Assembly: GCF_001685415.1 (NCBI RefSeq) | Contig: NZ_CP014989.1 | Coordinates: forward strand, 620,001-684,000 | Source: Serinicoccus hydrothermalis | Lineage (GTDB): Bacteria > Actinomycetota > Actinomycetes > Actinomycetales > Dermatophilaceae | Length of the DNA stretch: 64,000 nt | Direction: 5' to 3' | Program-made: the position numbers and the translations under genes | Shown here: piece by piece, positions 27,689-30,533 of the stretch | Position numbering within the stretch: the first letter of the stretch is position 1 | How the letters are laid out: the number at the start of each line of letters is the position of its first letter | Notes under the pieces: model-generated | Told to the model about the DNA's origin: nothing | The model's input: the letters and a program-made list of their open reading frames with translations, nothing else | Databases searched by the model: none

Positions 27689-27955
27689 TCAGGAGTGGCG
27701 GAGCAGGCTGACCGTCGCGAGGACCGCCAGGGTGACGCCGACGAGGAGAAGGACCACCGAGGCCCCGGCCACCACCGCGCTGGTCGGGGCGAGCGCGCCG
27801 GCCACCGGGCCGGCGACCACGACGAGCAACGCGGCGAGCGCGAGCTGGACCTCGGGTGCATACCGGGTGGGGTCGAGGGCCGCGACCGCGCCCCGGGCCG
27901 TGCGGGCGCGGCGGGCGCGCGGGGTGATCGTGGGCCGGTGCTGCGAGCGCTCCAT
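27689..27955 (-). CDS. Small membrane protein, unknown function
   Basis: An 88-residue protein with a basic N-terminus (PRARRARTARG) and two hydrophobic helices (VQLALAALLVVVAGPVAGAL and the segment ending VLLLVGVTLAVLATVSLL). The ATG at 27955 is preceded by AGGATC; the frame is open for 23 more codons. It is convergent with the nitroreductase gene, 15 bases away. No recognised family. Confidence 0.6.
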   Translation of the reverse strand: MERSQHRPTITPRARRARTARGAVAALDPTRYAPEVQLALAALLVVVAGPVAGALAPTSAVVAGASVVLLLVGVTLAVLATVSLLRHS

Positions 27956-28096
27956 GTCGATCCTGTCTCCGAGGGGGGCCGGCGCCCCCTGCGCGCCAGC
28001 CTCAGTCCTCCAGACGTCCAGCATGACGGCTGCCGTTGCGTCCGCGGGGAGAACGTGACCGGATCGTGACCTCGGGGCCGGATCCGGGCCGGCGGG

Positions 28097-29212
28097 TCAG
28101 CGCGAGGCGAGGAAGTCGTCGACCTCTTCGGCGGTCGGCGCGGTCGCCGGGCCGCGGCGGGTGACCTTGATGGCCGCCGCCGCGTTGGCGCGCCGGGCCG
28201 CCTCGACCCAGTCCCGGCCCTGCGCCACGCCGGCGCACAGGACCCCGGTATGCGTGTCCCCCGCCCCGTTGGTGTCGACCGGCGTCTGCGGGAAGCCGGG
28301 CACCCGGGTGGTGACCCCGTCGGCCCGCACCACGCACCCCTCCGGCCCGTCCCGCACCACGACCACCGCCCCCTCCGGCAGCCGCCCCGCCACCGCCTCG
28401 CACAGCCCCGCGAGCCCAACGCCCCCTGTGACTCCTGCGCCTCCTGTGACTCCTGTGTCCCCCGTGCCCTCTTCCCCGTTTTCGACCTCTGATTTGTTCG
28501 CCATGGCAGCGAAACCAATAGTCGAATTCGTGCCCTGCTGCCCGTTTTCGACCTCTGATTTGTTCGCCATGGCAGCGAAACCAGTAGTCGAATTCGAGCG
28601 GCTGGGGGCGTCCAGGAGGGCGCGGGCCTCGGCGGCGTTGGAGGTCCACACGGTGGTGCGGGCCAGCACGCGCTCAACGAGGTCGGCGTCGAAGGTCGCG
28701 AAGGGCTCACCGGGGTCGAGCACGACGTCCACGCCCTCCGGTATGCCCTCCAGCCAGGCGAGCAGCGGGTGGCGGGTGGGCTCGAAGAGGGTGTAGCCGG
28801 ACAGGCATACCAGATCGCCGGTGACCGCCGCGCTCGTCGCGAGCGAGTCCGTGGTGATCCGGCGCTCCGCCGCCCGTGTCGTGACGAAGGTGCGCTCCGC
28901 GCTGGGCTCGACCAGCACCACGCAGACGCCGGTGTCCAGGTCCTCGACCGGCGGTGCGCTGACCTCGACCTCCTCGCCGGCCAGCACCTCCCGCACCAGG
29001 TCGCCGTTGGGCCCGGTGCCCACCGCCCCGGCGAGCACCGCCGGAGCACCCGAGCGCGCCGCGGCGACGACGATGGTGACGGCACCACCGGCATACCTCG
29101 TCGCCCGGTCGGCCATGACGTTGCCGCCGCGCGCCGGGAGCGAGCCCACCTCGAGGACGAGGTCGACCATGGCCTGCCCGGTGTGGATGACCCTGCGCGG
29201 CGTCTGCGTCAT
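28097..29212 (-). CDS. PfkB-family carbohydrate kinase with in-frame repeat insertion
   Basis: A 371-residue ribokinase-like sugar kinase. Motifs: GSLPARGGNVMA near residue 23 and AGGAVTIVVAAARSG near 42 (sugar-binding PfkB signature 1 region), and the catalytic signature VDTNGAGDTHTGVL near 308 with the general-base Asp. Residues about 205-263 are an insertion not found in the family: two copies of a 56-base palindromic element (translated as GFAAMANKSEVENG twice), then T-G-x tripeptides from a 9-base repeat. The insert falls in a surface region between the strand with ALLDA and helix LAGLCEAVAG, so activity is probably kept. The substrate sugar is unknown. Divergent from the M20 gene. Confidence 0.88.
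   Translation of the reverse strand: MTQTPRRVIHTGQAMVDLVLEVGSLPARGGNVMADRATRYAGGAVTIVVAAARSGAPAVLAGAVGTGPNGDLVREVLAGEEVEVSAPPVEDLDTGVCVVLVEPSAERTFVTTRAAERRITTDSLATSAAVTGDLVCLSGYTLFEPTRHPLLAWLEGIPEGVDVVLDPGEPFATFDADLVERVLARTTVWTSNAAEARALLDAPSRSNSTTGFAAMANKSEVENGQQGTNSTIGFAAMANKSEVENGEEGTGDTGVTGGAGVTGGVGLAGLCEAVAGRLPEGAVVVVRDGPEGCVVRADGVTTRVPGFPQTPVDTNGAGDTHTGVLCAGVAQGRDWVEAARRANAAAAIKVTRRGPATAPTAEEVDDFLASR
28422..28466. repeat. Degenerate 9-base tandem repeat within the kinase gene
   Basis: Five units of the form nnTCCTGTG (for example ACTCCTGCG, CCTCCTGTG, ACTCCTGTG), read on the minus strand as Thr-Gly-x tripeptides. It adjoins the palindromic repeats and keeps the reading frame. Confidence 0.75.
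28475..28530. repeat. Palindromic interspersed repeat, copy A (in frame)
   Basis: A 56-base sequence running from CCCGTTTTCGACCTCTGA to TAGTCGAATTCG that differs from copy B at one base. Its ends are imperfect inverted repeats (CGTTTTCGAC against CGAATTCGAC read from the other strand) and CTCTGATTT pairs partly with AAACCAATAG, so it can fold into one long hairpin. Its GC content is near 50 percent against about 72 percent around it. It inserts without a stop or frameshift into the kinase gene. Confidence 0.85.
28541..28596. repeat. Palindromic interspersed repeat, copy B (in frame)
   Basis: Second copy of the 56-base element, ten bases after copy A, making a 66-base period (22 codons), so both copies are read in the same frame. 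55 of 56 bases agree with copy A, implying recent duplication or conversion. No other copy was noticed in the window. Confidence 0.85.
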
Positions 29213-29264
29213 GGGTCGTACCCTGCCACCCCCGCCGGGCCGGGCGAGCGCATACCCTCACCGC

Positions 29265-30533
29265 ATGAGCTCGCCCACCGCCGCCGTCCTCGCCCCGCTC
29301 CCCGACCTGCGGCCGTGGGTCGAGGACCTGTACCGCCACCTGCACGCCCACCCCGAGCTGTCGATGGCCGAGTACGAGACCGCCGCGCGGGTGGTCCAGG
29401 AGGTCTCCGGTATGCCCTCGGCCGACGAGCTCGAGGTCCACACCGGGATCGGCGGGACGGGCGTGGCCGTGGTCGCCCGCAACGGCGAGGGACCGACGGT
29501 GCTGCTGCGGGCGGACATGGACGGGCTGCCGGTGGCCGAGGACACCGGGCTCGACTACGCCTCGACCGTGACGACGACGAACGCCGCGGGCGAGCAGGTG
29601 CCGGTCATGCACGCCTGCGGGCACGACACCCACGTCGCGACGCTGCTGGCGGCGCTGCGGCTGCTGCTGGAGGGGCGGGAGCACTGGGGCGGGACCGTGG
29701 TCGCCGTCTTCCAACCGGCCGAGGAGCAGTACAACGGCGCGGACGCCATGGTGGCCGACGGCCTGACCGACCTGCTGCCGCGGCCCGATGTCGCGCTGGG
29801 GCAGCACGTGCTGCCCGGCGCCGCGGGGTCGGTCGAGGTGGCGCCGGGTCCGATCATGGCCAGCTGCGACGACTTCCGGATCACGCTGCACGGCAAGGGC
29901 GGCCACGGCTCGGCGCCGCACACCGCCATCGACCCGGTGGTCATGGCGGCCTCGCTGGTGATGCGGCTGCAGACCGTCGTCGCGCGGCAGGTGTCGCCGC
30001 AGGCCACCGCGGTGGTGACGGTGGGGCGGATCAGCGCCGGCACGAAGACCAACATCATCCCCGCGCAGGCGGTGCTGGAGGGGACGGTGCGCACGTATGA
30101 CGCGGACGTCGCCGCGCACTGCCTCGAGGTCATCGAGCGGACCGCCCGCGCGGAGGCGCTCGCGTGGGGCGCTCCCGAGCCCGGCTTCGAGACCTTCGAC
30201 CACCTGCCGGTGACCGACAACGAGCCCGGCGCGACCGACCGGGTGCGGGCGGCGCTGGAGGCCGAGCTCGGCGCGGACCGGGTCGGCGACTTCACCCCGG
30301 AGATGGGCTCGGAGGACTTCGGCGCGCTCCCGGGCGCGTGGGGCATCCCCTCCTGCTACTGGGCGTTCGGGGCCTTCGACGCCGAGGAATGGGCCGCGGC
30401 CCGCGAGCGGGGCACCGAGCAGGCCGACTTCCCGGACAACCACTCGGCGCACTTCGCGCCCGTGCTGCAGCCGATGCTCGACACCGGGGTGCGGGCCATG
30501 GTTGCCGCGGCGATGGCCTGGATCGGGCGGTAG
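29265..30533 (+). CDS. M20-family amidohydrolase
   Basis: A 422-residue zinc metallopeptidase/aminoacylase of the M20D (IAA-amino-acid hydrolase, HipO, AmhX) group. Metal-binding and catalytic residues are in RADMDGLPVAEDTG (near residue 82), HACGHDTHVA (near 115), FQPAEEQYNG (near 149) and GQHVLPG (near 178); the dimerisation lid includes GKGGHGSAPHTAIDPV (near 207). Members hydrolyse N-acyl amino acids or dipeptides. TACCCT six bases before the ATG suggests a leaderless mRNA. A second M20D enzyme lies at 44.4 kb, about half identical by eye in its motifs. Confidence 0.92.
   Translation: MSSPTAAVLAPLPDLRPWVEDLYRHLHAHPELSMAEYETAARVVQEVSGMPSADELEVHTGIGGTGVAVVARNGEGPTVLLRADMDGLPVAEDTGLDYASTVTTTNAAGEQVPVMHACGHDTHVATLLAALRLLLEGREHWGGTVVAVFQPAEEQYNGADAMVADGLTDLLPRPDVALGQHVLPGAAGSVEVAPGPIMASCDDFRITLHGKGGHGSAPHTAIDPVVMAASLVMRLQTVVARQVSPQATAVVTVGRISAGTKTNIIPAQAVLEGTVRTYDADVAAHCLEVIERTARAEALAWGAPEPGFETFDHLPVTDNEPGATDRVRAALEAELGADRVGDFTPEMGSEDFGALPGAWGIPSCYWAFGAFDAEEWAAARERGTEQADFPDNHSAHFAPVLQPMLDTGVRAMVAAAMAWIGR

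Follow-up and report, generated by a model that had tools for sequence, protein, structure and literature searches.

A REP-like palindromic repeat family in Serinicoccus hydrothermalis, found mainly near gene 3' ends and twice in frame within a sugar kinase gene

Palindromes of the REP type are best described in Proteobacteria, where they are tied to RAYT transposases, according to the consulted parts of PMC3116915 and PMC3733652. In the same parts, the REPINs of Pseudomonas are presented as REP doublets forming hairpins (PMC3116915), and the CGTC families as apparently having no dedicated transposase (PMC3733652). The word 'Actinobacteria' does not occur in the available portion of the PMC3733652 text. 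The table of RepRanger, as available in part, gives counts for three Actinomycetota genomes (PMC12306157), so REP-like repeats in Actinomycetota are not new as such. Among titles and the beginnings of abstracts, no paper was found on the present repeat in Serinicoccus or Ornithinimicrobium.

The window, that is, the whole 64,000-base stretch of DNA that was analysed, corresponds to bases 620001-684000 of the single-contig genome (3,597,394 bases) of S. hydrothermalis and carries two copies of a palindromic element inside a sugar kinase gene. Our preferred reading, to which we give a probability of roughly 0.55, is a genus-restricted REP-like family located at gene 3' ends, with rare and tolerated in-frame insertions.

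The palindromic unit and its two copies in a kinase gene

The gene carrying both copies lies on the minus strand at 28097..29212 and encodes a PfkB-family sugar kinase of 371 amino acids (Pfam PF00294, E 3.1e-38). It is under purifying selection, with dN/dS about 0.2 against three orthologues (0.109/0.488 = 0.22 for S. kebangsaanensis, genome G031; 0.082/0.346 = 0.24 for G033; 0.131/0.639 = 0.21 for G010). The first-pass annotation had noticed here two nearly identical 56-base copies with a period of 66 bases, translated without stop or frameshift, and this is what we found: segments 28475-28530 and 28541-28596 form a 66-nt direct repeat with one mismatch, and the peptide GFAAMANKSEVENG is encoded twice in the open ORF. 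The foreign-looking composition also noticed there was confirmed as regards low GC, which was 52% in 28475-28596 versus 72% in the window. Inverted-repeat ends had been proposed as well; an inverted repeat was present, but it was not restricted to the ends, the whole 46-bp core being an imperfect dyad centred on GCCATGGC, of the form TTCGAC-N13-GCCATGGC-N13-GTCGAA, with constant ends and centre and variable arms. The core of copy 1 occupies 28481..28526 (extended element 28473-28534, constant centre 28500..28507) and that of copy 2 occupies 28547..28592 (extended element 28539-28600, constant centre 28566..28573); they are separated by a 20-bp spacer (28527..28546), which gives a core-to-core period of 66, a multiple of three.

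Folding, which had been suggested as a check, gave a divided answer: the kinase pair folded jointly as DNA was remarkable (z -4.17), and the single copies were not (z -0.83 and -1.11). No Rfam model matched region 27900-29400 at E values up to 1. The translated insert NSTTGFAAMANKSEVENG ... NSTIGFAAMANKSEVENG (28475..28596, minus strand) was predicted with low confidence by AlphaFold2; mean pLDDT was 81.3 for the kinase, and residues 210-263, comprising most of the insert and the sequence after it, were below 50.

A kinase query matched 30 of the 31 genus genomes, 27 strongly (S. hydrothermalis included) and three weakly, the latter probably being paralogues; six of 26 orthologues with uncertain starts were excluded before structure prediction. 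The comparison of orthologues, set beforehand as a test able to refute the first-pass claim, showed that the segment is not a conserved domain: among the 27 aligned kinases, that of S. hydrothermalis has two copies, that of S. kebangsaanensis has a single copy, which shares the loop and the frame, and the other 25 lack the element, close relatives showing a short low-complexity sequence at this loop position. The element would have entered a variable surface loop in frame, been tolerated there and been doubled in S. hydrothermalis, and the peptide added to the kinase is probably a passenger.

Copy number, genomic context and history of the sites

When up to three mismatches were allowed, 49 copies were found in the S. 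hydrothermalis genome and none with a reversed-pattern control, well in excess of chance and in agreement with the dispersed REP/MITE-like family first proposed. The search for further copies had also been named as a refuting test, and copies were found: at up to one mismatch, the 31 genus genomes contained 49 in S. hydrothermalis, 50 in S. kebangsaanensis, four in G014 and one each in G033 and G016, with none in 26 genomes. The first set of 28 genomes included 27 besides S. hydrothermalis, and BLAST with the window copies matched none of them. An exact scan of about 85,000 species genomes returned 42 stretches, 35 from S. kebangsaanensis, three from Ornithinimicrobium cerasi (four copies) and four from scattered records, and missed at least one exact S. 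kebangsaanensis copy (own site 3522673). A covariance model of 96 copies matched six of the 31 genus genomes (100 matches in S. hydrothermalis and 102 in S. kebangsaanensis, both strands counted, 26 in G014, four each in G033 and G016, and one in G006), these counts being lower bounds because 150 candidates were scored per genome. A search of the order covered 297 genomes sampled from a larger group; strong matches were confined to S. hydrothermalis and S. kebangsaanensis and three other genomes matched weakly, the counts again being lower bounds with 18 candidates scored per genome. Single pattern matches in Planctomycetota, Collinsella, Paludibaculum and Acidobacteria were attributed to chance, the first having no model match at E 0.01 and the rest reaching at most 27.4 bits. 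A phage or plasmid origin was also rejected, with no viral contig carrying the exact pattern and no blastn match in phages or plasmids. RAYT-type transposases (Pfam Y1_Tnp, PF01797) were detected neither in the S. hydrothermalis genome nor in any of the 31 genus genomes, and were detected in five of 14 control genomes. The best reading of this distribution is a genus-restricted, REP-like family, which would have spread to about 39 places in S. hydrothermalis by a putative dispersal mechanism.

Genomic contexts were assigned with a home-made codon-bias gene caller, which missed the kinase (assigned via Pfam) and may have made other errors. By these calls, the 39 own places comprised 23 between convergent genes, 13 between codirectional genes, two between divergent genes and the kinase, so that 38 of the 39 were extragenic, and the majority of copies adjoined gene 3' ends, chiefly between convergent genes. 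The comparison set, 159 gaps of 40 bp or more that lack the element, came from the window and from the loci of S. kebangsaanensis; they were convergent in 19 cases, codirectional in 90 and divergent in 50. Against these, the convergent excess had p 1.5e-12 by count and 2.9e-7 by gap length in S. hydrothermalis, and p 2.8e-6 by count and 0.003 by gap length in S. kebangsaanensis, where 15 of 34 gaps were convergent.

Three of the 47 S. kebangsaanensis copies examined lay inside gene calls. Two copies were found in the linker of an ORF with HAMP-HisKA-HATPase and DUF4153 domains, in a frame that differs from that used in the kinase, and the peptides that the element contributes to the two ORFs are unrelated; the HisKA/DUF4153 open frame is kept without the element in S. 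hydrothermalis and G033. The first-pass annotation had likened the element to the Rickettsia palindromic elements, which describes these exceptions and not the family in general. A family of that kind, whose role would be to insert into genes and add a peptide, agrees with the presence of in-frame copies both in two species' kinases and in the histidine-kinase/DUF4153 linker, and with periods divisible by three in both in-gene pairs (66 and 63). Nevertheless, it is very improbable, being largely refuted by the extragenic bias, with one of 39 own places in a gene, and by the different frames and unrelated peptides of the two ORFs.

In S. kebangsaanensis, S. hydrothermalis and G033, the histidine kinase and the DUF4153 membrane protein share one open frame (L059:243-3101), which may be one protein or two genes with no intervening stop. 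As a separate observation, the octamer GGTATGCC/GGCATACC was counted 44 times over the two strands of window positions 1-64000, where a second-order Markov model predicts 2.0, and is the most over-represented among octamers with at least 15 copies in the window. It was also seen directly after stop codons and in relatives, and we take it to be HIP1-like.

The dnaA gene was located mid-contig at 2060941-2062386 (G000:C1). Chromosome sites bound to the terminus were rejected as an explanation, because the cluster of elements at 1.8-2.7 Mb surrounds dnaA and therefore gives no terminus signal; enrichment near dnaA was a weak, post hoc signal, with 16 of 39 places in the nearest quarter (p 0.02).

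Comparison of the 39 own places with S. kebangsaanensis showed 24 bracketed and occupied, four bracketed and empty with no trace within four mismatches (147474, 1097051, 1972295 and 2699081), and 11 not bracketed on both sides; the 35 S. kebangsaanensis loci had been chosen by exact match, which tilts site sharing and makes block constancy there largely given. Flank identity to S. hydrothermalis was 87.5% for S. kebangsaanensis (12.5% divergence) and 88.8% for G033, and no intact element was found at 28 bracketed orthologous sites of G033, nor any element at 14 of G010. At the G033 site of own 3101519 there was a GC-rich relative of the element in which four of the 20 constant positions were changed and the stem was kept, as judged by inspection. 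At site 2547933, occupied in S. hydrothermalis and S. kebangsaanensis, the stop and start codons of G033 nearly touch. The species tree was not resolved, the three quartets being supported by 414, 487 and 312 sites.

The claim that the element is mobile received indirect support only. The empty sites in relatives, including the four empty in S. kebangsaanensis, fit it, but 24 sites are common to both species and a Y1 transposase was not found. As regards the features that define MITEs, the transposase search covered Y1, and the intergenic flanks of the empty sites examined were too diverged for a target-site duplication to be read. Arm identity between orthologous copies was 0.718 versus 0.556 when pairings were permuted, a value reached in none of 20000 permutations, and hence the copies were inherited in place; the best reading is that occupation of most resolvable places predates the split from S. 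kebangsaanensis. Concerted evolution of the arms was rejected as the main process, since orthologous arms were 0.714 alike versus 0.548 and 0.542 for paralogues within each species. The commonest arm motif was AAACGT in S. hydrothermalis and AATCGT in S. kebangsaanensis.

Other repeats were seen at or beside some of these sites. The S. kebangsaanensis site of own 1097051 (L157, near 1158-1212) has an unrelated long hairpin, GGGATAGCACAACC...GGTTGTGCTATCCC, instead of the element, with relatives at L030/L036 and L054. At the G033 site of own 1288277 (L183), a different palindromic unit, GACCGTGGAATGCCTGCCGGGGCAGGACTTCCCCGGTC-like, is repeated in tandem about three times. Next to elements in L022, L018, L009 and S. 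kebangsaanensis L156, a CGGCCGCACGGTCTGCGCCGAC-like unit forms short tandem arrays, and at site 147474 such arrays differ between S. hydrothermalis, S. kebangsaanensis and G033. The proposal that other hairpins fill the empty convergent sites was considered too weak: in 31 empty gaps the best hairpin averaged -23.8 versus -21.6 kcal/mol for the controls, 24 of the 31 exceeding their own control mean.

Constant blocks, arm pairing and possible roles

In the S. hydrothermalis genome, the constant blocks were exact in 47 copies and had one change in two, with none showing two or three changes although three mismatches were allowed. Comparison of 21 orthologous single sites showed differences at 154 of 546 arm positions, at 86 of 336 positions in the flanks (8 bases on either side) and at two of 420 in the constant blocks. 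Both of these last changes fell on the S. hydrothermalis side, which alone is a fair test because 19 of the 21 partners in S. kebangsaanensis came from exact-match loci, with blocks exact by construction. Four of the 21 pairs rest on one aligned flank, and in two of these the partner is the copy nearest that flank. The simplest reading is that the constant blocks are held by selection, which would have maintained them in place. Plain selfish MITE or REP debris with no host function agrees with the patchy distribution, with the own sites empty in S. kebangsaanensis and other empty sites in relatives, and with tandem pairs that correspond to a single copy in the other species. This reading is disfavoured and seems improbable to us, given the constancy of the blocks across the 12.5% divergence of the flanks and the lack of own copies with more than one mismatch.

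The arms showed pairing above expectation. Double changes were observed in 193 cells versus 136.9 (sd 7.4) after shuffling, a number reached in none of 500 shuffles, and 80.3% of cells were paired versus 27.7-48.2% for slid partners. The mean MFE of the S. hydrothermalis copies was -24.0 kcal/mol, versus -20.3 with arms exchanged among copies and -14.0 with base-shuffled arms. Only six of the 49 copies were perfect palindromes, 12 (one of them in the kinase) folded more weakly than -15 kcal/mol, and one-sided arm changes between orthologues broke pairs about as frequently as they made them (31 versus 28). Strict selection for an RNA hairpin was therefore rejected, the pairing being above shuffles yet loose.

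The position, symmetry and pairing all suggest that this is a bidirectional element at gene 3' ends, present as an RNA hairpin, as protein-bound DNA, or as both. Most likely, the elements would work bidirectionally at 3' ends, as hairpins or bound by a protein, by way of termination or transcript-end protection; we ranked this reading first on account of the convergent bias and the covariation of the arms. When compared with intrinsic terminators, the 3'-end location and the mean MFE fit, but TTTT was found 8-20 nt downstream in none of the 49 own copies (plus strand only). Together with the loose pairing and the 12 weak folds, this speaks against a 3'-end role, as does the number of places, about 39 being much too small a number if the element were to be the general terminator in this genome. 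An Rfam search of 20 of the 36 own loci retrieved by place yielded RNase P alone.

The main rival is that the element is a duplex-DNA binding site, not an RNA hairpin, for a putative dimeric protein (nucleoid, chromosome-organising or regulatory) that would read both ends and the centre, with cooperative binding to tandem sites at a distance of 73 bp, or roughly seven helical turns. We kept it because of the frozen blocks, the fixed length and the 73-bp pairs: core length was identical in 39 of 39 own copies in a search that tolerated nine lengths (34-42 between the ends), and tandem pairs closer than 250 bp had a period of exactly 73 in seven of ten cases in S. hydrothermalis and five of nine in S. 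kebangsaanensis (12 of 19), with dissimilar 27-bp spacers. Blocks are unchanged in weakly folding copies too. Moreover, the other periods (62, 63, 65, 66, 84, 95 and 113) lean to the same helical phase, with p 0.021 for a period of 10.5 bp in a post hoc test of seven values in which several periods were tried. Covariation above shuffles, however, would not be needed by a duplex reader, and some model matches outside S. hydrothermalis and S. kebangsaanensis are 1-2 nt shorter; on balance we consider duplex binding possible, if rather unlikely. A reading of the arms through the minor groove or duplex shape was rejected, since A/T and G/C swaps were stronger in the flanks (1812 of 2699) than in the arms (62 of 134).

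The bidirectional 3'-end element and a putative trans-acting reader might also be joined in a genus-specific two-part system. It is conceivable, though we regard it as unlikely, that a putative protein reads the fixed ends and centre of the 46-bp palindrome, single or in 73-bp pairs. That the same protein would mark or close the 3' ends that convergent genes share is a similarly doubtful proposal, and it is tentative in the same degree that sites would be kept by selection while the protein is present and would become plain hairpins or be lost where it is lost. The G033 site of own 3101519, with its stem kept and four of 20 constant letters lost, is cited for this reading.

Comparison with known repeat systems

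The family is dispersed, numerous (49 copies) and mainly extragenic (38 of 39 places by home-made gene calls), as REPs and REPINs are. According to the consulted part of PMC3116915, it shares with REPINs inverted ends that are conserved, a less conserved middle in which compensatory changes occur, and the extragenic location, and its preferred spacing of 73 bp compares with 71 bp in one REPIN group. Unlike REPINs, it has a constant centre as well and, in S. hydrothermalis, a core fixed at 46 bp, and unlike RAYT-linked REPINs it was not accompanied by Y1_Tnp in its own genome or in the 31 genus genomes (PMC3116915, same part). The GTAG/CGTC-tagged REPs, as described in the portion consulted of PMC3733652, are likewise mostly intergenic, near 3' ends and between convergent or unidirectional ORFs; they also form dimers, mostly 20-100 bp apart, and some of their units lie inside ORFs, where, in the view of that paper's authors, they may fall in loops or linkers. 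In contrast to them, the present family has no tag at its ends and up to 23 pairs in the stem, versus 5-13 bp (PMC3733652, same portion). In 96 copies, the sequence up to 8 nt beyond the core contained GTAG 0 times, its complement once, CGTC once and its complement 0 times, and some copies have these tetramers inside the core only. Because the RAYT and tag features are lacking, we filed the family as a REP-like variant and not as a member.

A high-GC actinobacterial genus thus has a REP-like family for which RAYT was not found in the own and 31 genus genomes. In the orthologous copies of two species, the ends and centre form a frozen frame, distinct from the arms, which change fast and in a partly compensatory way, and shared occupied sites together with clean empty ones make the question of a selfish repeat or a host 3'-end element directly testable. 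Finally, the kinase and histidine-kinase cases illustrate how a repeat can extend a protein. In this the element resembles the Rickettsia palindromic elements, which are also palindromes translated in frame inside genes; those are about 150 bp long with nearly half in ORFs, as given in the consulted part of PMC10969869, versus 46-62 bp and one of 39 own places here.
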